Shown: one piece after another, positions 8,179-26,802 of the stretch
Position numbering within the stretch: position 1 is the first letter of the stretch
How the letters are laid out: each line of letters opens with the position of its first letter
Source of the DNA: Candidatus Methylacidiphilales bacterium
GTDB lineage: Bacteria; Verrucomicrobiota; Verrucomicrobiia; Methylacidiphilales; JAAUTS01
Reading direction: 5' to 3'
DNA: 43,181 bases
Assembly: GCA_028713655.1 (NCBI GenBank)
Contig: JAQTNW010000029.1
Span: 1-43,181, forward strand
Made by a program: the position numbers and the translations under genes
The notes under the pieces: model-generated
Databases searched by the model: none
What the model saw: the letters and a program-made list of their open reading frames with translations, nothing else
Told to the model about the DNA's origin: nothing

Positions 8179-9158
8179 CAGCGCGGCGTGGTGGAGGGCG
8201 GGTTCGGATTGCGCTTCACTGTCGGCACCAACGGGTTTCCTTTCGAGGCGGACCCAGCCCCGGATAATTGGAATTTGGGCATCAACACCGTGTCGCCTTC
8301 CTTCAATCCCGATAGGATCTCGGTTTTTTTGCCGTCGCTGATCCCGACTTCAATCTGCCTGGACACTGCCTGGCCGTCATGGTCCGGGTCCTGGACAAGG
8401 ACAAAGCTTTTGCTTTTGTACTGCCGGATCGTCGCTGCGGGTACAAACAAGGCGTCTTTCTTTTCCGCCACAAGAAACTTGGCAACAGCCGTCATGCCGC
8501 TGCGGATGAAATCAGGCACTTTATCCGGAAGCACATCCACTTCATAGGTCGTGACACTGTTCACGATGGCGGCATTGAAGGCAATCCGTTCCACAGCGCC
8601 TGTAAACTGCACATCCGGATATGCGTCCACGGCCAATTCAACGCGTTGTAGAAGTTTTATTTTGGCCAGATCCGTCTCATCAACGATGGCGGCCACAATC
8701 AAATGGTCCGACATGCTGAAAACCACATCGGAGGAAGTCACCACCTGGCCCGGATTCAAATTTTTTGAAATGATGGTCCCGTCCAGTGGAGCAATCAGGG
8801 CGGCTGGCTTGTAATAGTCCTCCCAGTGCGCGAGTTCGTCCGCGCCCTTGGTTCGCGCGGCGTCCAGCAACACCGCGCGGTCCGTCGAACTCATCCAGGC
8901 CAGAACCTGCCCTTTTTTGACTGCGTCGCCAATTTGCACCAGCACACTGTCAGCCCTGCCGTTGATGGGCGGCTTGATATCGAGCTTGTTCTCAGGTTGC
9001 ACGGTGCCGTTTGACAAAACCTGGCTCCGGATCTCACCCCGCTGCACGGGATATGAGTCGTAAGACGAATTCTTAGGCTTGCACCCGTGGCAAAGCAACG
9101 CGAGTAGAACAAGAGGCAAAGGGCCGGTCAGCGGCCGTATCAGAATTTTTATTTTCAT
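8178..9158 (-). CDS. MacA/HlyD-family periplasmic adaptor
   Basis: This 326-residue adaptor couples the MacB-like pump to the outer-membrane channel. It has an N-terminal hydrophobic segment ending LLALLCHGC, which could be a non-canonical lipobox or a plain signal anchor. A short biotinyl-lipoyl hairpin region follows (PPINGRADSVLVQIGDAVKKGQVLAW, then LIAPLDGTIISKNLNPGQVV), then beta-barrel and membrane-proximal domains. The coiled-coil hairpin between the lipoyl halves is very short, suggesting a small or missing helical hairpin. It overlaps the TolC-like gene by 4 bases (ATGA), so all three are one operon. Some homologues are annotated as efflux RND adaptors; the adjacent MacB-like gene favours an ABC pump. 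Confidence 0.87.
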   Translation of the reverse strand: MKIKILIRPLTGPLPLVLLALLCHGCKPKNSSYDSYPVQRGEIRSQVLSNGTVQPENKLDIKPPINGRADSVLVQIGDAVKKGQVLAWMSSTDRAVLLDAARTKGADELAHWEDYYKPAALIAPLDGTIISKNLNPGQVVTSSDVVFSMSDHLIVAAIVDETDLAKIKLLQRVELAVDAYPDVQFTGAVERIAFNAAIVNSVTTYEVDVLPDKVPDFIRSGMTAVAKFLVAEKKDALFVPAATIRQYKSKSFVLVQDPDHDGQAVSRQIEVGISDGKKTEILSGLKEGDTVLMPKFQLSGAGSASKGNPLVPTVKRNPNPPSTTPR

Positions 9159-10468
9159 GGTATGTCTCCGGATCCTTGCGCCAGTTCCCAGTTGGCCTCG
9201 GCTATGACCGCATCCCGCCGGGTTTGCAACTCGGTTTTCTGTATGCTGATCAGGCTGTTTTGAATCTGGTCGTAATCCTGAAAGGAAGCCAGCCCGTTGG
9301 CGTACAATCCTTCCGCGATTTCCGCCCGCACCTGGTTTGCTTTCAACAGTTGCTGGTTGACCTCCACCACCTCAATGGAATTGAGCAGGGCGTTGTAGGT
9401 CTGCTCCAGCGTGAAAACAATCTGGTCGTCCGAACTCTGCCGATTCGCCAGCGATTGCCGGTATCGCGCCGACGCCGAGCGGACATCAAAATAGTTCAGC
9501 CCTCCATCGAAAATCGGCAAAGACACGTTAAGCCCCGCCTCCCAACCCTCACTTCTCGGCAGGACCGTATGCCCCTGCTTGAAGGCCGAGCCCGTAACGC
9601 TCACGGTAGGCATAAACTCGCTGCGCGCAATCGTGATCCCGGCCTTGGCGGCTGCGACATTCATATCGCTTTGAAGATGGATCGGCGTGCCGGCGGCCAT
9701 GTCAAGATAATCCGGTTCCTTCGCGGGCGGCTTTTTGGTTTTCAGTTCCCCGGTCACATGAATGTCGATTGCCGTGATTCGTCCCAGTACCTGGGCAAGC
9801 TGGCGTTGCGAAACCTTGATGTTGCGCCTGGCCTGTGATTCTTCATAAAGCGCCTGCCGGTAATTTGCCGCCGTCAGGAGATAGGATCCCTTGTCTTCCT
9901 GCCCACCCTCGTATTTTAGCTCCACCTGTTGGGCTTCCTGTTTTCGGGCGGCCGCAATATGCTCGGCCAGTTTCAACTGCTCCTGCGCATACAAAAGCTG
10001 CGCAAAAGCGGTTTTTAGCGAAAAATGGACCGTGGACTTTTCAATCGCCTCTCCCATCAACGATACCTGGTAGTTGGCCGAGGATTGGTCGATTTGGCCG
10101 TTGGTTTTAAAACCGTCGAAAATCATCTGATCGACGTTCAATTGCGCGGAGTATTGGTGGGTGGTGGTGGTGCTGGAAAATGAGCTCTCTCGGTTAATGG
10201 TGTGCGTGTCCGTACCGTTGGCGCTGGCCGAAATCTGTGGAAACAGGCTGCTGAAACTGCCCTTGAACTGGGCTTGGAAATTAATCACATTTTCACGCGC
10301 ACCCCTCAGATCGGGATTGTTTTCCGCAGCCTCTTTCACACACCGTTCCCAATCCAGTTCGCGCGGAAGATGCGACTCCTCGGCAGCCAACCCGGATATC
10401 AGGTACGGAGTCAGTGACAACAAAGCGAAACAAGCCGTGGTTGTGGCAATTCTTTGAGTAAAACCCAT
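9155..10468 (-). CDS. TolC-family outer membrane channel protein
   Basis: This is an outer-membrane efflux protein of about 437 residues. The ATG at 10468 begins a signal peptide (MGFTQRIATTTACFALLSL...GLAAEES); a longer frame reaches 10549 but adds no homologous sequence. The mature part has two outer-membrane-efflux repeats with long heptad-like helices (WERCVKEAAENNPDLRGARE at the start; LLKANQVRAEIAEGLYANGLASFQDYDQIQNSLI in the second repeat). It is first in the operon with the adaptor and ABC gene, so it likely provides the exit duct for that pump. Confidence 0.88.
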   Translation of the reverse strand: MGFTQRIATTTACFALLSLTPYLISGLAAEESHLPRELDWERCVKEAAENNPDLRGARENVINFQAQFKGSFSSLFPQISASANGTDTHTINRESSFSSTTTTHQYSAQLNVDQMIFDGFKTNGQIDQSSANYQVSLMGEAIEKSTVHFSLKTAFAQLLYAQEQLKLAEHIAAARKQEAQQVELKYEGGQEDKGSYLLTAANYRQALYEESQARRNIKVSQRQLAQVLGRITAIDIHVTGELKTKKPPAKEPDYLDMAAGTPIHLQSDMNVAAAKAGITIARSEFMPTVSVTGSAFKQGHTVLPRSEGWEAGLNVSLPIFDGGLNYFDVRSASARYRQSLANRQSSDDQIVFTLEQTYNALLNSIEVVEVNQQLLKANQVRAEIAEGLYANGLASFQDYDQIQNSLISIQKTELQTRRDAVIAEANWELAQGSGDIP

Positions 10469-10615
10469 AATCTTGCAGCAAAATGGCAACAGAAAAATCA
10501 GCTTCCCCTCCATGGGAAACCAAGGATTTGAGCATTCCTCCCCGCTCATGCCAACAATAAATAAAAGCAGCCTGTTACAGGGTAGATAACCCTGGCTGAG
10601 TCAAAAAGTTGCGGA

Positions 10616-10680
10616 TTTTCACAAAGAGACCGTGAAGAGCACAGGTTTACAGGAAGAACGCGAAGAAACGCAAAGAAAAG
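10616..10680. repeat. degenerate ~10-bp-period intergenic repeat
   Basis: This stretch between the TolC-like gene and the small secreted protein is built from degenerate units around AAGAACGCGAAGAAACGCAAAG. It belongs with the other roughly 10-bp-period arrays of this window but is the least regular of them. Confidence 0.4.
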
Positions 10681-10773
10681 ACAGTTTATCCGGAGATAAA
10701 GACAGATTCACATTTGGCTCGCTGCTTTCCCCCGCATCGCCATCATGAATCGAACCCGGAAAGAACCCCCCAC

Positions 10774-11145
10774 ATGAAAATTGCATCCCTCATCTGTGTC
10801 GGCATCCTTGCCGCGTTTGCAACAGCACAGGCAGCCGAACCTCCTTCCGACGCGCAGGCCGCGTCAAACAAATTGCTCTCGGCTCTTGTTTCAAGCGATT
10901 ACGCAGCATTTGTTGCCGACGGCGACACCGCATTCAAAGGACTTAAGAAGGAAATGTTTGATTCCGTGGCAGCCCAACTCGCTCCGCGATTCAAAGCGGG
11001 CTATGAGGCCGTTTATCTTGGAGAGATGAAACAGAAGGGATACCAGGTCACGTTGTGGAAACTCAGCTTTAAGGACGGCGGCGACGATGCCCTCGCCACC
11101 CTCAGCCTCAAAAACGCAAAAATCGGCGGCTACTGGATCCGATAA
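10774..11145 (+). CDS. small secreted protein, unknown function
   Basis: The ORF encodes 123 residues from ATG 10774; an in-frame upstream ATG at 10714 would put sequence before the signal peptide. The N-terminus MKIASLICVGILAAFATAQAAEPP is a standard Sec signal with an AxA cleavage site. The mature part has a helix-rich start (ASNKLLSALVSSDYAAFVADGD) and later strands (YQVTLWKLSFKDG, ALATLSLKNAKIGGYWI). This order is seen in NTF2-like/DUF3887-type periplasmic proteins and resembles each half of the duplicated protein at 35339-36193. No catalytic residues are recognisable. It converges on the sigma factor gene. Confidence 0.65.
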   Translation: MKIASLICVGILAAFATAQAAEPPSDAQAASNKLLSALVSSDYAAFVADGDTAFKGLKKEMFDSVAAQLAPRFKAGYEAVYLGEMKQKGYQVTLWKLSFKDGGDDALATLSLKNAKIGGYWIR

Positions 11146-19211: not shown

Positions 19212-19285
19212 GGTCCCGTAGCTCAGATGGATAGAGCAGAGGTTTCCTAAACCTTTGGTCGGCAGTTCGACTCTGCCCGGGACCA
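19212..19285 (+). tRNA. tRNA-Arg (CCT)
   Basis: All four arms form: acceptor GGTCCCG/CGGGACC, D-stem GCTC/GAGC, and T-arm GGCAG-TTCGACT-CTGCC. The anticodon arm GAGGT/ACCTT encloses TTCCTAA, giving anticodon CCT (AGG). The discriminator is A and CCA is not encoded. higBA converges on it from 85 bases away. Confidence 0.95.
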
Positions 19286-19369: not shown

Positions 19370-19795
19370 TTAATCCAAAAAAATCCCTGGATTCACTGCA
19401 AAATGTTTCGCCAATTTTGAGATGTGTTCCGCTGTCAAGTACCGTTCCCCGCGCACAATTCTGGCTCCCAGGCTGCGGTCAACTCCAAGCAAGGCCGCAA
19501 GTTGGCTGGCATTCATACCGTTTTCTTGAAGCAGATATTTAAGCGCCTCCAATGGAGCCATCTTCCTAACTTTAACAGGAGCGCACTCCTCCTCGTAATC
19601 TGCAATGATGTCGGAAAGCAGATCGAGGTAATCTTCCTGCTCCACATTAAGCTTGTGTCCCGCCAGGAGATCCACCATTTCGGTGGAGTTTTCCAACTCC
19701 ATCTTGTCATGAATAGGGCGGGGCAGGAGCAGAAGGCACAGCCCTTCGTAAGTCTTGGGAAGTTCGTCAAATGAGAGCGCGGCGATTTTTTTCAT
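19370..19795 (-). CDS. higA: HigA-type antitoxin
   Basis: This 141-residue antitoxin has an N-terminal toxin-binding half (MKKIAALSFDELPKTYEGLCLLLLPRPIHD) and a C-terminal XRE helix-turn-helix (LKYLLQENGMNASQLAALLGVDRSLGARIVRGERYLTAEHISKLAKHF). Such proteins neutralise HigB and repress their own promoter. ATG 19795 overlaps the toxin stop as ATGA; an in-frame start at 19810 would add five residues. The toxin-first gene order is typical of higBA. Confidence 0.9.
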   Translation of the reverse strand: MKKIAALSFDELPKTYEGLCLLLLPRPIHDKMELENSTEMVDLLAGHKLNVEQEDYLDLLSDIIADYEEECAPVKVRKMAPLEALKYLLQENGMNASQLAALLGVDRSLGARIVRGERYLTAEHISKLAKHFAVNPGIFLD

Positions 19796-20100
19796 AAGGT
19801 TTCCTTCCATTTCTCCTTGTCATATTCAGCATGTGTCATGAATCGTAATACAAATACTTTGTGTCGGTCATAATGAATTGCCGTAATGAGCCTATAATCG
19901 TTGCCTCCGATGTTGAACACCACCACGTTCCGTTCGGAATCCACCCGAACTTGATCGGCATGGCCATACGTTTTTCGGACATCATCAAACCGTTTCCAGT
20001 CAGCAACTCTTACAGTCGCCAGCCATTTTTCCAACGGGCTTTTGGCTTTCGGATAGGTTGGCCAATACCCACGTATCCGTGATTCCTTAATCACCCGCAT
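19792..20100 (-). CDS. higB: HigB-type mRNA interferase toxin
   Basis: This 102-residue protein has the HigB_toxin layout: MRVIKESRIRGYWPTYPKAK, PLEKWLATVRVADWKRFDDVRKTYG, VFNIGGNDYRLITAIHYDRHKVFVLRFMTHAEYDK. HigB toxins cut mRNA on the ribosome. The RLITAIHYDRHKVFVLRFMTHAEYD block holds the usual basic and His residues, and no break is seen. ATG 20100 is preferred; the frame extends to 20181 without family support. The operator for HigA should lie in the 125-base gap to the divergent ATP-grasp gene. Confidence 0.9.
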   Translation of the reverse strand: MRVIKESRIRGYWPTYPKAKSPLEKWLATVRVADWKRFDDVRKTYGHADQVRVDSERNVVVFNIGGNDYRLITAIHYDRHKVFVLRFMTHAEYDKEKWKETL

Positions 20101-20225
20101 GTGGACAATTTGTCCTACTCCCTCCAAATTGTCAATAGCAGTACTTGGGAGCTCCTTCATCCCCAAGCACGGAAATTTCATTTACAAGCCACCGGAGTCG
20201 TCCATTTTTCCCCCTTACTCATATA

Positions 20226-22769
20226 ATGGCCGTCAGCAGAAAACATTTCTCCGCCTCCGAACCGCTGTCCGAGCCCGCCTCGGCCGACACGGCCGATTTT
20301 CTCCGAAGCTTGCGGAATTTGCCCCCATCCGAACTGCGCAAACGGCAGCAAAAAATGGAAGCGCTCGCGCTGGACCTCGGCATCCATTTCAGCCTGAACG
20401 GGCAATCCGGACTCCTCGACCGCCAGTGGAAATTCGACATCATCCCGCACATCATTCCGCAGCAGGAATGGAATCTGATCGAAGCCGGCCTCATCCAGCG
20501 CACGCGCGCATTCAGCAGGTTTCTTTCCGACCTGTATTCGGAACAAAAAATCCTCAAGGAAAAGGTCATCCCCTATCATCTTGTTTTCGAGGACCCATCC
20601 TATCTTTTCGAATACAGCAACATCCCCACCCCGCGGGACATCAACATCCTCATCGGCGCGGTCGATCTGGTCCGCGGCACGGACGGACGCTGGTTCGCCA
20701 CCCAAAACCATTACTCAACGCCCTTCGGCATTTCCTTCATCCTCCAAAACCGGCGGATGCTGACCCAGGCATTTCCGGAGATATTCCAGACTTTCAATGC
20801 CTGCCCGGTTTCCTCCTTCAGCACGGAATTGGTCGAACGCATTTCCTCGCTTTCGGACAAGCCGAACCCGCACATCGTCCTGTTGAGCCACAGCACCACG
20901 CTGGATAATTTTTTCGAGGAAAGCTTTCTCGCGCGCCGCATGGGCGTGGCCATTGTCAAGCCCGCCGACCTCATCGTTCGCGAGAACTGCGTCTATCTGA
21001 AAACGATCCGGGGCCTTGAGCAGGTCGATGTCATTTACCGGCGCCTGGAAAGCCGCTCCATCGATCCCATCGCGTTTCGCGGCGCCTCGCAGCAGGGCAT
21101 TCCGGGTCTGGTCAACTGCGCGCGCCAGGGCAAGGTGGCCATCGCGAACGCGCTGGGCTGTGGCGTTGCGGACAACAAGGCGCTGCTCCGGTATTCGGAC
21201 TCGATCATCCGTTTCTATCTTCAGGAACAACCGCTGCTCCCCACGCTGCCCACCTATAATTGCCGCGACTACGACCAGCTCGAATATGTAAAAGCCAACC
21301 TCGGCAGCCTTTTGTTGCGCCCGGTCCAGCGCCAGGACAGCCATCAGCGCTGGGTGTTGCACAAGCCCCGCGATGCCTACGAAGGCGCAATGGAAAAAAT
21401 GCTGCGCGAAAATCCAGCTTCCATCGTCGCGCATCCCAAAATCGACGTGACGGGAATTCCGCGCTTTGAAAACGGGCGGATGATCCCACGCCCTGCTTTT
21501 CTACGCGCTTTCCTCCTCATGGGTGAAAACCCGCTGGTTCTGCCCGGGGGATTGACGCGGCAAAGTCTGCCGTCCGACAACCGCCACATCGTGGCCAACC
21601 TCGCATCGGGCGTGAAAGACACCTGGGTGCATGGCGGAAATGAACGCCCGACAAGCAGCGCCTCCCGGACGCGCAACGCCTGGGCGCCTCGCGAGTTCAA
21701 AATTCCCAGCCGCGTCGCGGAAAGCCTGTACTGGATCGGACGCTACACCGAACGGGCGGAAAACACATCCCGCATGCTGCACGTGCTTGAAGAACTGGGT
21801 TGGTCGCAGTTGGGCCGCCGCGAACGCCGCAATGTGTGGCCGCTCTGGCAGGCTGTGGCGTCCTCCACCGGCCAGAATGATTATCTCAAAATCAAAAGCC
21901 CTCCCGCCCAGGTCTCCGGCCTGAGCCGGCGCCTCATCAGCGGGCGGGACAACACCGCCTCCGTCTTTTTTTGCATCACCCTGGCCAACCAGAACGCCCA
22001 AGACATCCGTGAATTCATCACGCCCGAGGTTTGGGCCGTCCTCAGCCGTTTTATGCGCCGGCTGGAACAACGCTGCCAGGACAACACGGCGCCGGCCTTG
22101 TCACTTCAGGAAATCTGCCAGGCCAGCGTCGATGAAATCGCCTGCCTCAACGGCACCATTCTCCGGACGATGCCGCATGATGACAGTTGGGAGTTCTACC
22201 GCCTCGGCACGCTTCTGGAGCGCGCCATCTGCACCGTGACGGTCCTCGACATCGTTCTCAGCAGCGCCTTGAAAAATCTGGACCCGTCCGGAGGACAGGA
22301 CCCAGACCTGACTTCGCTCCTCCGCCTCCTGAGTTCGCTTGACGCCTACCAGCGCGAATTCCGCTCGCGCACCTATGTCGGCCAGGTGGCCGAATTGCTC
22401 TGGCGAAAATCCGAGGCGCCCAGTTCGGTCGCGTACTGCTGCAAACACATCCTGTATGCGCTGCGCAGCGTGCTGGGCGCAGGCGAGACAGATCCGGGTT
22501 CCCCGCTCCACCACGCGCAAACGGTGCTGGAGCACATCGGCAACATCCGCTGTGAAACGCTTTTTCCGCGGGACGCGTTCGAGGCCGATGTGGCCGGGCC
22601 TTCAAACCTGCCCAACATCCTCCAGTTGCAGGCCCGTGTGAAACAGGAGAGTTCCTACCTGGAACAGCATCTCCTGCGCCTCCATGAATTGGTCGAGGAC
22701 CGTTTTTTCAGCCACCAGATGGACTATCCAAACGGAGGAAATAACGGCGCCCTGCCGCGTGATCCATGA
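20226..22769 (+). CDS. circularly permuted ATP-grasp / alpha-E fusion protein
   Basis: This 847-residue protein is two proteins in one. Residues 40 to about 480 are a circularly permuted ATP-grasp (DIIPHIIPQQEWNLIEAGLIQRTRAFSRFLSDLY, RDINILIGAVDLVRGTDGRW, ANALGCGVADNKALLRY, PGGLTR). Residues about 495-835 are an alpha-E (DUF403) helical domain (RVAESLYWIGRYTERAENTSRMLHVLEE). In many genomes these are separate adjacent genes. ATP-grasp enzymes form carboxyl-amine bonds; the alpha-E partner has no proven function. The stop overlaps the next start as ATGA. It begins the cassette that includes two transglutaminase-like genes and DUF2126. Confidence 0.9.
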   Translation: MAVSRKHFSASEPLSEPASADTADFLRSLRNLPPSELRKRQQKMEALALDLGIHFSLNGQSGLLDRQWKFDIIPHIIPQQEWNLIEAGLIQRTRAFSRFLSDLYSEQKILKEKVIPYHLVFEDPSYLFEYSNIPTPRDINILIGAVDLVRGTDGRWFATQNHYSTPFGISFILQNRRMLTQAFPEIFQTFNACPVSSFSTELVERISSLSDKPNPHIVLLSHSTTLDNFFEESFLARRMGVAIVKPADLIVRENCVYLKTIRGLEQVDVIYRRLESRSIDPIAFRGASQQGIPGLVNCARQGKVAIANALGCGVADNKALLRYSDSIIRFYLQEQPLLPTLPTYNCRDYDQLEYVKANLGSLLLRPVQRQDSHQRWVLHKPRDAYEGAMEKMLRENPASIVAHPKIDVTGIPRFENGRMIPRPAFLRAFLLMGENPLVLPGGLTRQSLPSDNRHIVANLASGVKDTWVHGGNERPTSSASRTRNAWAPREFKIPSRVAESLYWIGRYTERAENTSRMLHVLEELGWSQLGRRERRNVWPLWQAVASSTGQNDYLKIKSPPAQVSGLSRRLISGRDNTASVFFCITLANQNAQDIREFITPEVWAVLSRFMRRLEQRCQDNTAPALSLQEICQASVDEIACLNGTILRTMPHDDSWEFYRLGTLLERAICTVTVLDIVLSSALKNLDPSGGQDPDLTSLLRLLSSLDAYQREFRSRTYVGQVAELLWRKSEAPSSVAYCCKHILYALRSVLGAGETDPGSPLHHAQTVLEHIGNIRCETLFPRDAFEADVAGPSNLPNILQLQARVKQESSYLEQHLLRLHELVEDRFFSHQMDYPNGGNNGALPRDP

Positions 22770-23644
22770 GATTCCGCATTGTCCACCACACGGAATATCT
22801 CTACCGCATGCCGGCCTCCGAGTCATATGCGGAATTGCGCATTTGCCCCCAGACCTGCGAAACCCAAACGGTCCTGTCCCACAAACTTGAAATCACCCCG
22901 CATGCCTCCGTGGGCCATTACACGGATTACCTCGGCAACATTGTGGAATTCTTCTCAATCCCCTACCGGCACAACCGGCTCATCGTCCGCGCGTCGGCGG
23001 AAGTTGAAACGCATGAAATCACGCCGCCTGCCAACGCGCTGGGAGTCACGGTCGCGGAAGCGCTGCAAATCTACCGCAGCCAGATGCTCCCCTTGTATCC
23101 CTATCTGCGGCCGACCGACCGCGTCCCGCTGCACCAGGTGCTGCTCCCGCTGCGCCGGGATTTCATCAAGCCCGCGCAAAACCTGGGCGAGGCGATACTC
23201 GATCTCAACCGCTGGGTCCGCAAACATTTCAAATACAAACCCGGCGCCACCGACGTCGGCACCCCGCTTGCAACCTTTATCCGGCAACGGCGCGGCGTCT
23301 GTCAGGACTTCGCGCATCTCATGCTCGGCATCCTGCGCACCTACGGCATCCCGGCGCGTTATGTCAGCGGTTATATCGAGGCTTACGATCCCTCCACAAA
23401 CGCCGATAAACTCGTTGGCGCCACCGCAAGTCATGCCTGGGTGGAGGTTTTTCTGCCGGGCGGATTCTGGTGGGGCCTTGACCCGACCAACAATCAGGAG
23501 GCCGGGCCCCGGCATGTGAAGGTCGCCGTCGGGACCGACTATGTCGATGCCGCCCCGCTCAAGGGCACCTACAAGGGCGACCGGGGTCAGGAATTGGAAG
23601 TCATGGTGTCGGTAAAACGCAAAAAGAAACAGGTCACGGCATGA
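22766..23644 (+). CDS. transglutaminase-like cysteine protease family protein, first copy
   Basis: This 292-residue cytoplasmic protein has the bacterial transglutaminase N-terminal beta domain (MRFRIVHHTEYLYRMPASESYAELRICP) and a papain-fold catalytic domain. The triad is Cys179 (RRGVCQDFAHLMLG), His223 (ASHAWVEVFLPG) and Asp239 (WGLDPTNN). There is no signal peptide. Bacterial members often cleave rather than crosslink peptides. It overlaps both neighbours by 4 bases (ATGA), implying fixed stoichiometry with the ATP-grasp/alpha-E protein and the second copy. Confidence 0.92.
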   Translation: MRFRIVHHTEYLYRMPASESYAELRICPQTCETQTVLSHKLEITPHASVGHYTDYLGNIVEFFSIPYRHNRLIVRASAEVETHEITPPANALGVTVAEALQIYRSQMLPLYPYLRPTDRVPLHQVLLPLRRDFIKPAQNLGEAILDLNRWVRKHFKYKPGATDVGTPLATFIRQRRGVCQDFAHLMLGILRTYGIPARYVSGYIEAYDPSTNADKLVGATASHAWVEVFLPGGFWWGLDPTNNQEAGPRHVKVAVGTDYVDAAPLKGTYKGDRGQELEVMVSVKRKKKQVTA

Positions 23645-24507
23645 AACTAAACGTCCAGCACAGCACCACCTATCAATATGACGAGAAAGTCGCTTTCACG
23701 CCGCACAAAATCCTGCTCCGGCCGCGCGAAGACCCGCACATCCGCGTTTGTGAATTCCATATCCAGACTTTTCCCCAGTCCGATCTCAAATGGTCCCGGG
23801 ACGCGTTTGAAAACAGCATCGCCACGGCCTATTTCACGGGTGAATCCCGGCAGTTGCTGATCCAGGCGGGAATGACCGTCGAACTGCTCCAGGACAACCC
23901 CTTCGACTTCATCATTGAGCCCTATGCGGCCACGCACCCGTTTCAGTATAACGGCGACGAGCTGGAGGCCCTGCAAGGGTACTTGAGCAACACAGGCATG
24001 GAATGTGCTTCTCTGGATGCCTGGATCCAATCCACCATGACAACCCTGCCGGATCAAACGTTGCAACTGCTGACCACGCTCAACCGGGCCATCTATGAAA
24101 AAATCCAATACCGGCGCCGGGAGGAAAGCGGCGTCCAATCGCCCGATGAAACTTTGCGCCTGAATTCCGGCAGTTGCCGGGATCTTGCCAGCCTCTTCAT
24201 GGCGGCCTGCCACAGTCTTGGCCTGGCCACGCGCTATGTCAGTGGTTATCTGTATGCTCCGGAGGAACCGGGTAAATCCAGCAACCGCGCCGCGGGTTCC
24301 ATGCACGCCTGGGCCGAGGTGTACCTTCCAGGGGCCGGATGGAAAGGATTCGATCCGACCAACGGTGTGCTGGCCACCAACTTTTTTATCCCCGTGGCCG
24401 TTTCAACGCGCCCGGCCTGGACCAGCCCCATCCAGGGCGCTTACAGCAAAAGCCATCCGGTGGACAGCCAACTTATCGCCGAAGTGTCCGTCACCCGCCT
24501 CGAATAA
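23641..24507 (+). CDS. transglutaminase-like cysteine protease family protein, second copy
   Basis: This 288-residue paralogue has the same plan (MKLNVQHSTTYQYDEKVAFTPHKILLRPR) and an intact triad: Cys179 (SGSCRDLASLFMAAC), His222 (SMHAWAEVYLPG), Asp238 (KGFDPTNG). It is clearly diverged from the first copy, so the two probably see different substrates. In many genomes a transglutaminase of this type is fused to DUF2126; here DUF2126 is the next gene, 8 bases on, so this copy may be the unfused equivalent. Confidence 0.92.
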   Translation: MKLNVQHSTTYQYDEKVAFTPHKILLRPREDPHIRVCEFHIQTFPQSDLKWSRDAFENSIATAYFTGESRQLLIQAGMTVELLQDNPFDFIIEPYAATHPFQYNGDELEALQGYLSNTGMECASLDAWIQSTMTTLPDQTLQLLTTLNRAIYEKIQYRRREESGVQSPDETLRLNSGSCRDLASLFMAACHSLGLATRYVSGYLYAPEEPGKSSNRAAGSMHAWAEVYLPGAGWKGFDPTNGVLATNFFIPVAVSTRPAWTSPIQGAYSKSHPVDSQLIAEVSVTRLE

Positions 24508-24515
24508 CATCCGCA

Positions 24516-26690
24516 ATGAAAAAAAGCCGCAGCCCCTTGGAGACTCCCTACAGCCGCCCGGTTTGGAAGCAAATCCGGAACTGCGCCCGAAAAGTCGAAG
24601 CTGCAGTGAAAGACTCCGGCGCCCTGCTGACCATGGGAGGAGAACCCACCTTTGTGCCGCTGAACCCGGAAGGCGCCGAATGGAACGTCGATGCCCTCGG
24701 CCCCACAAAACTTTCCTACGCCCGCAGGTTCGCACTCGAGTTTATCCGGGAATTTTTCCCCGGCGCCCTGCTCACGCAGACCTACGGAAAACTTTACCCC
24801 GGCGAACCGCTTCCACGCTGGAGCCTGCTGGTCCATATCCATCCCAATCGCCGTCTCTGGAACGAGCCCGAACGCCTGCTCGCCGGCCCGCCGTCCGCGG
24901 ACAATACAATCGAATCAGCCAGACACTTCGCCCAAAAACTGGCCCAAAGAATCGGCCTTCAAACCTATCTTTACGAAGCCGCCAATCCGGAGACGCCCGC
25001 CACCGCCCAAGGCTGCGTATTGCCATTGGATTACACGCACGACAACTGGATCAGCGGCAAATGGCCCTATCGGGATGATGAATATATCGTACTCATACCC
25101 GGAGACAGTTCCATGGGATTGCGCCTGCCGTTGAACCTGCTGCCGGAGAGTTGTCTGAAGCAAGCCTTGACTGTTGAAATCAAGGACGGGGGGCTGGACG
25201 TCTTCATCCCCCCCCTCAGCCTTGAACCCTATCTGAACCTGATCGGGCACATTGAAGCCCTGGCTGCGGAGCTTGACGTGCAGGATCTGGTCATTTCCGG
25301 CTACCCGCCCGGCAAAGACGAGCTGCTCGAACGCTACGCCTTCACCTCGGACCCCGGCGTGATTGAAGTCAATCTCCCGCCCGCCGGCAATTGGTCCGAA
25401 CATGCCCGGCAACTGAAAATGCTCTATCACGCGGCGCACAAAAGCGGGCTCTGCGCGCACAAACTCCATTTCAACGGACGGGCGGTCGCCACCGGCGGCG
25501 GCGCGCACATTTGTTTCGGCGGGCCAAAACCCGAACTCAGCCCCATCTTTCACCTGCCGGATCTGCTCCCCAGCATCCTCCGCTACTGGCAGCATCATCC
25601 TTCGCTCAGCTACCTTTTTTCCGGCCAGTCCGTCGGCCCGGGCTCGCAGGCGCCACGGATCGACGAGAGCACCTATGACGCCCTAACAGAACTTGAAATT
25701 GCCTTTGACGGGTCGGCAAGCCTTTCCCACGACCCGGATTTATTCGGCATGCTGTTCCGGGACCTGATCACCGACCGCAGCGGCAACACGCACCGGGCCG
25801 AGATCAGCATCGACAAGCTGTGGAATCCATCCCAACCCAACGGCACCTGTGGTATCCTGGAATTCCGCGCCTTTGAGTCCCAGCCCGACTGCGAGCGCGC
25901 GGCCGCTGTCGGACTTTTTATTCGCGCCATCATCGCCATGCTCGCGCGGAACCCGTTCAAGAAAAATCTCCTGCGCTGGGGACAAGCCCTGCACGACCGC
26001 TTTTTTCTGCCCTCCATTCTCTGGTTGGATCTTGGCGACGTGGCGGCGGACTTGAGAAAGGCCGGCATTCCGTTCGATGTCTCCTGGCTTCGGCCCCATT
26101 TCGATTTTCGCTTCCCGACGGCCGGCCTCATGCCCGCGGGCAAGGAAACACTGACAGTTCGTTATGCGATAGAAGCCTGGCCCCTGCTGGGCGAACAGCC
26201 CGCCGGCCCGTTGACAGTCCGCTCCGTGGATTCCAGCACCGAGCGCATCGAACTGTCCCTCAGCTCTCCCAAGGCGCTCGACAAGGGGCTGCTGCAAATC
26301 AACGGAATTCCCGTGCCGTTTAAAGTTGAGAAAAAACTGGCGGTGGCCGCGCTGCGCTACCGGGCCTTCCATACCCTCCCTTCACTCCACCCGCACATAC
26401 CCGCCCAGACCCCGTTGTTGCTGGAATGGGTCAGCCTGAAAAACGGCCAGGTCCAATCCGCGGTCAAATGGCACAGTTGGCAGCCCAACCACCAACCCTA
26501 TCCGAGCCGTCCTGCGGATTGTGAGGAGGCGCAAAATCGATGCCGGGAACGCTGGGTCCCCCAACCGGATTTGATTGGCTCAAAACGCAAAATTCCCAGG
26601 AAATGGGACGGGCAATCAAAAACATTCACCACCGATTTGCGCCGTTTGCACAGTGATATCTCAAATTTGAAATCTAAAACAAAAATTTGA
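24516..26690 (+). CDS. stand-alone DUF2126 protein, predicted COOH-NH2 ligase
   Basis: This 724-residue protein corresponds to the region usually fused behind a transglutaminase in proteins of about 1,100 residues. Recognisable blocks are TMGGEPTFVPLN (about 39-50), TGGGAHICFGGPKPE (about 325), THRAEISIDKLWNP (about 424) and CGILEFRAFESQPD (about 444). As I recall, the family has been proposed to be a glutamine-synthetase-fold amide ligase; no activity is proven. The last 13 or so codons lie in an AT-rich inverted repeat that also appears in other gaps, so the native C-terminus may have been replaced. Start ATG 24516 follows the previous gene by 8 bases. Confidence 0.87.
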   Translation: MKKSRSPLETPYSRPVWKQIRNCARKVEAAVKDSGALLTMGGEPTFVPLNPEGAEWNVDALGPTKLSYARRFALEFIREFFPGALLTQTYGKLYPGEPLPRWSLLVHIHPNRRLWNEPERLLAGPPSADNTIESARHFAQKLAQRIGLQTYLYEAANPETPATAQGCVLPLDYTHDNWISGKWPYRDDEYIVLIPGDSSMGLRLPLNLLPESCLKQALTVEIKDGGLDVFIPPLSLEPYLNLIGHIEALAAELDVQDLVISGYPPGKDELLERYAFTSDPGVIEVNLPPAGNWSEHARQLKMLYHAAHKSGLCAHKLHFNGRAVATGGGAHICFGGPKPELSPIFHLPDLLPSILRYWQHHPSLSYLFSGQSVGPGSQAPRIDESTYDALTELEIAFDGSASLSHDPDLFGMLFRDLITDRSGNTHRAEISIDKLWNPSQPNGTCGILEFRAFESQPDCERAAAVGLFIRAIIAMLARNPFKKNLLRWGQALHDRFFLPSILWLDLGDVAADLRKAGIPFDVSWLRPHFDFRFPTAGLMPAGKETLTVRYAIEAWPLLGEQPAGPLTVRSVDSSTERIELSLSSPKALDKGLLQINGIPVPFKVEKKLAVAALRYRAFHTLPSLHPHIPAQTPLLLEWVSLKNGQVQSAVKWHSWQPNHQPYPSRPADCEEAQNRCRERWVPQPDLIGSKRKIPRKWDGQSKTFTTDLRRLHSDISNLKSKTKI

Positions 26691-26728: not shown

Positions 26729-26802
26729 TGGCTACCCGACATGGATTCGAACCATGACTAAAGGAACCAAAATCCTTTGTGCTACCGTTACACCATCGGG
26801 TA
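26729..26802 (-). tRNA. tRNA-Gln (TTG)
   Basis: The minus strand folds fully: acceptor TACCCGA/TCGGGTA, D-stem GTGT/GCAC and T-arm CATGG-TTCGAAT-CCATG. The anticodon arm AAGGA/TCCTT has loop TTTTGGT, giving anticodon TTG (CAA). The 3' CCA is encoded (26729-26731). It stands between the DUF2126 gene and purN with no close operon partner. Confidence 0.95.

Follow-up and report, generated by a model that had tools for sequence, protein, structure and literature searches.

We identified a four-gene operon in the window, the 43,181-nt contig of a Candidatus Methylacidiphilales bacterium, that is likely to be the split form of the DUF2126 module found in Verrucomicrobiota. In this module a DUF2126 ligase would act with a transglutaminase-like protein (TG2), a pseudo-ATP-grasp fused to an Alpha-E domain would be their partner, and the working ATP-grasp would come from a second locus of the same genome. 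The family is widespread, and an Alpha-E / circularly permuted ATP-grasp / glutamine synthetase (GS)-like ligase / Anbu system was reportedly proposed by Iyer et al. in 2009 (Mol BioSyst 5:1636). The system itself is already known; the notable point is the consistent active-site loss of its fused ATP-grasp in the relatives examined.

The operon spans positions 20226-26690 on the forward strand. Its first gene, g1 (20226-22769, 847 aa), encodes a degenerate circularly permuted ATP-grasp fused to Alpha-E, as assigned with Pfam (CP_ATPgrasp_2, 2e-112; Alpha-E, 3e-56) and by a match to PDB entry 3n6x (5.9e-86). Two transglutaminase-like (TG) cysteine peptidases/amidases follow, g2 or TG1 (22766-23644, 292 aa) and g3 or TG2 (23641-24507, 288 aa), with Transglut_core (9e-25 and 1e-20, respectively) and Bact_transglu_N domains in both. 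The last gene, g4 (24516-26690, 724 aa), encodes a short, stand-alone DUF2126 protein (Pfam, 653 bits), a putative ligase of the GS fold. The fused ATP-grasp/Alpha-E protein and a stand-alone TG thus share an operon with DUF2126 here. A search of the cassette against NCBIfam returned 0 matches. ATGA stop/start overlaps join g1 to g2 (22766-22769) and g2 to g3 (23641-23644), and an 8-nt gap (24508-24515) separates g3 from g4, confirming the tightly coupled run and the domains that had been claimed from the sequence alone. The identical four-gene order is found in further families of the order and class; the arrangement is therefore not due to chance. The view of one co-made cassette is supported. 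Beside the cassette we found no conserved substrate-peptide gene among families of 60 aa or longer, none of which is shared outside local synteny.

We modeled DUF2126 with AlphaFold2 (mean pLDDT 72) and compared the model with the PDB using Foldseek. The top 50 matches all belong to the GS superfamily, with YbdK-type ligases first and with glutamine synthetases, GmaS and the depupylase Dop also represented, which supports the GS fold put forward in the sequence-only reading. The best E-value is only 5.5e-3 and none lies below 0.001. Such weak values might be expected because the fold is permuted, if a proposal said to have been made by Iyer et al. in 2009 holds. Sequence searches returned no solved relative of DUF2126. 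Across 104 long-form and 37 split proteins, Glu-284 (in the motif DPGVIEVN), Asn-286, the TGGG-H331 motif, Arg-381 and the E449-x-R451 pair are invariant or nearly so, with rare exceptions at Thr-326 and His-331; these residues were likened to GS motifs by eye. DUF2126 is most likely the ligase of this operon, paired with TG2.

Both TG proteins retain all residues of the Cys-His-Asp triad, as had been noted before: Cys-179, His-223 and Asp-239 in g2 (Cys-179 codon at 23300-23302), and Cys-179, His-222 and Asp-238 in g3 (Cys-179 codon at 24175-24177). The presence of two transglutaminases had also been taken for a special feature, which our trees do not bear out. A tree built from 237 TG sequences strongly supports the division between TG1 and TG2; g3 groups with the TG domains that are fused to DUF2126 elsewhere (support 99-100), and g2 groups with stand-alone TGs. 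The two proteins are therefore exactly the usual, standard TG domains of a DUF2126 module, without an extra TG duplication. TG2 is the neighbour or fusion partner of DUF2126 almost everywhere.

We next compared the cassette to known systems. The system of Iyer et al. (see PMC6376114, PMC5666114) is reported to be a neighbourhood of ATP-grasp, Alpha-E, TG and GS-like ligase with a proposed function in peptide synthesis or tagging. The window brings the same four components together in one neighbourhood. It differs in that its genome lacks Anbu, in that TG2 and DUF2126 are separate genes, and in that the ATP-grasp of the cassette is degenerate, with an intact ATP-grasp/Alpha-E pair at another locus. 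The type A fused module (TG-DUF2126 fusion, ATP-grasp/Alpha-E fusion, TG) corresponds to the cassette one-to-one in its five domains and shares the loss of the ATP-grasp motifs. In type A, however, TG2 is fused to a longer DUF2126 and this gene usually comes first, whereas in the window the two are split and a shorter DUF2126 comes last. The Anbu operon of Yersinia bercovieri and Pseudomonas putida (PP_2685-2688) contains homologous ATP-grasp, Alpha-E and TG proteins, but its ATP-grasp and Alpha-E are separate, Anbu is present and DUF2126 is absent from its four genes. In Yersinia, the ATP-grasp, which is of the separate type, liberates Pi from ATP, and neither peptidase activity nor a complex was found for Yersinia Anbu (PMC6376114). 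RloABC / RimBK also combine an ATP-grasp with a peptidase and a TG-like partner, but in an arrangement of their own, with a RimK-like ATP-grasp, an inactive TG with seven transmembrane helices and a retropepsin (PMC12239564).

The sequence-only reading had found no Anbu in the window. Our searches with the PF00227 proteasome profile and with an Anbu-specific profile agree and extend this result to the whole assembly. The specific profile was used because PF00227 is weak for Anbu, scoring only 20-36 bits and missing a copy in one genome. With it, Anbu was found in 1 of 34 genomes with a split-type cassette, on a different contig from the cassette. The accompanying remark that Anbu belongs to such clusters elsewhere conflates subtypes: a minority of the DUF2126 neighbourhoods that we examined contains Anbu, which in operons is usually accompanied by a separate ATP-grasp and a separate Alpha-E.

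Homologous clusters have been linked to nitrogen supply. When nitrogen is limiting, NtrC and sigma-54 switch on a Burkholderia cluster that encodes ATP-grasp, Alpha-E and TG together with a large TG protein (PMC5491218), which we infer to be a TG-DUF2126 fusion; the P. putida Anbu operon is up-regulated under the same condition (PMC3325844, PMC8050072). By analogy only, the system in the window might be induced by nitrogen limitation as well. These reports are also an argument for a degradative system, in which TGs and ligases would scavenge or remodel amide-linked nitrogen (e.g. isopeptides or amides) during nitrogen starvation instead of building a tag. We regard this as unlikely for the window: DUF2126 keeps its candidate ligase residues, the cassette comes without a transporter or deaminase, and upstream of g1 we found neither a sigma-54 site nor an enrichment of such sites.

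We favor the split-module interpretation. The ATP-grasp half of g1 has a single relative of solved structure, 3n6x, which belongs to the separate type and retains all motifs. Separate ATP-grasps share the motif V-L-E-D-N-x-R-x-P-S-G, a D-D-K triplet and a loop resembling K-x-A-N-E-x-G-G-Y-G. We take the E-x-N pair to bind metal, and the Lys/Gly-rich loop presumably binds the ATP phosphates; both assignments come from general knowledge of the ATP-grasp superfamily, not from a ligand-bound structure of this family. In g1, the E-D-N metal-binding motif is replaced by Q160-N-H162 (20703-20711), in a region that aligns without gaps, and D-D-K reads D-N-K. The phosphate loop is replaced by RPVQRQDSHQRWV (residues 365-377, 21318-21356), with PVQRQDSHQRW at the loop position. 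This pattern is not peculiar to g1. In a comparison of 130 ATP-grasp domains, 57 of 57 separate proteins contain E-x-N, against 0 of 72 fused ones; the Lys/Gly-rich loop is kept in 57 of 57 versus 1 of 72, and D-D-K likewise is found in the separate proteins and missing from the fused ones; a 58th 'separate' row, which looks like a broken fused gene, was set apart.

The cassette had been read as encoding two ligases, and loss of ATP-grasp active-site residues on alignment had been named beforehand as a finding that would refute it; this is what we observe in g1. With E-x-N, D-D-K and the loop lost, the cassette therefore contains one plausible ligase, DUF2126, and not two. That g1 and DUF2126 are both active ligases, and that the cassette suffices to produce a peptide tag or metabolite, would be in line with the very high Pfam CP_ATPgrasp score of g1 and with the many other conserved ATP-grasp columns that it keeps. 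The motifs, however, are missing from g1 and from essentially all of its fused relatives, and we consider this alternative very unlikely. The ATP-grasp half of g1 is, judged from its motifs, probably a pseudoenzyme, and one that may have gained another activity. Its Alpha-E domain (21663-22730) retains the conserved residues of the family, including the ER motif, and is predicted to be all-helical (AlphaFold2 pLDDT 91); a search with the model found no fold relatives in the PDB (best E 0.47). A fusion of ATP-grasp to Alpha-E had been called unusual, but it is common in our survey of gene layouts, which covered 80 named genome contigs plus ~60 loci from related genomes. In the ATP-grasp and Alpha-E trees, three groups are resolved, namely fusions from split cassettes, fusions from fused-type cassettes and separate proteins; with the tree root not fixed, a single fusion and loss in the distant past would fit this grouping.

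An intact ATP-grasp is present elsewhere in the genome of the window. At a second locus (G000:C19, ~26.3-28.8 kb), a separate ATP-grasp (496 aa) and a separate Alpha-E protein (334 aa) are encoded in tandem (positions 8298-10792 of the extracted locus, L224), and the motifs VLEDN, ADDK and VVKAANEAGGYG are kept. This pair is unlinked to the DUF2126 cassette, and no TG or Anbu gene lies beside it. A separate Alpha-E is found in 34 of 34 genomes with split DUF2126, 31 of which also encode the fused protein; in the remaining 3, DUF2126 occurs without a fused g1-type protein. In a second genome set, each of the 29 genomes that encode a fused ATP-grasp encodes a separate one as well. We never found the fused protein without a separate partner in the genomes sampled. 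The dependency in this sample is one-sided: DUF2126 occurs without the fused protein, and the fused protein never occurs without the separate partner. In two families (f10 and f25), both modules lie within one operon.

In the mechanism that we propose, DUF2126 with its GS fold and TG2 would form the ligase unit of the operon. The ATP-grasp half of g1 would not perform canonical ATP-grasp chemistry; together with Alpha-E, it would probably be a subunit with a role in binding or regulation. An active ATP-grasp with its own Alpha-E would be supplied by the second locus, so that the two loci jointly would provide two ligases building an amide-linked product. The two TGs, as cysteine amidases/peptidases, may trim or rearrange this product, without Anbu. 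The motif loss in the fused protein and the intact separate copy show which protein to assay for ligation and which one is the partner. Both loci would have to be provided together in experiments, and the motif loss corrects database names that suggest ATP-grasp activity for the fused protein.

We then investigated how the split arrangement of TG2 and DUF2126 is distributed. The usual layout, in the 80 contigs and ~60 related loci, is a TG-DUF2126 fusion followed by the ATP-grasp/Alpha-E fusion and a TG. DUF2126 occurs in 70 of 388 sampled genomes of the phylum; within these 388, the short stand-alone form (mostly ~700-740 aa) is confined to the class of the window, and the long fused form is found in this class plus other classes. 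In a 141-row DUF2126 tree, a long branch separates all 37 split sequences of Verrucomicrobiota, among them g4 and its closest relative (a member of the same family), from 104 sequences that are mostly fused and come from many phyla. The split genes form a deep group covering at least 10 families of Verrucomicrobiota, and the fused copies of this phylum are intermixed with those of other phyla. Four 'split' genes fall inside the fused clade and may reflect contig ends or frameshifts. Four genomes of the same order hold both kinds of DUF2126; two of them contain split-type cassettes without TG2. At another Verrucomicrobiota locus (L056, 10001-13100), DUF2126 precedes TG2, opposite to the order at other split loci. 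In family f12, TG2 and DUF2126 sit in a conserved neighbourhood, with the fused ATP-grasp/Alpha-E protein encoded elsewhere in the genome.

What had been described as an unusual gene fission is an old lineage trait of Verrucomicrobiota in our trees. The TG2 tree (rooted on TG1) and the DUF2126 tree both suggest that the fused clade arose beside or inside the split grade; a fused-from-split origin is a tentative reading, given an AU test p of 0.25 and a root trichotomy in the TG2-DUF2126 concatenation. Recent fission in the lineage of the window, for which the prevalence of fused forms in other phyla could be cited, is highly improbable given the deep split group in at least 10 families and, within the limits of that AU test and trichotomy, the placement of the fused clade. 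As a tentative generalization, which we think is more doubtful than the split-module interpretation itself, the fused ATP-grasp/Alpha-E protein could be an obligate pseudo-ligase subunit across bacteria, controlling the intact pair and DUF2126 as one two-ligase machine, and the split operon of Verrucomicrobiota could represent the state before TG2 and DUF2126 were fused.

A strict confinement of split DUF2126 to Verrucomicrobiota was considered and rejected: 1 of 299 Pseudomonadota genomes encodes TG2 and a split DUF2126 that are 67% identical to, and nested in, Verrucomicrobiota family f10. This pair was apparently transferred horizontally.

There is no obvious sign that the cassette was imported recently, because its GC3 of 0.71-0.75 is similar to that of the adjacent hisG and pta genes. 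A divergent higBA-type toxin-antitoxin pair (19370-20181) is located 44 nt upstream of g1; this pair looks recently acquired, because its GC3 of 0.49-0.55 is far below that of its neighbours. Genes for tRNA-Arg(cct) (19212-19285) and tRNA-Gln(ttg) (26729-26802) flank the cassette together with higBA.
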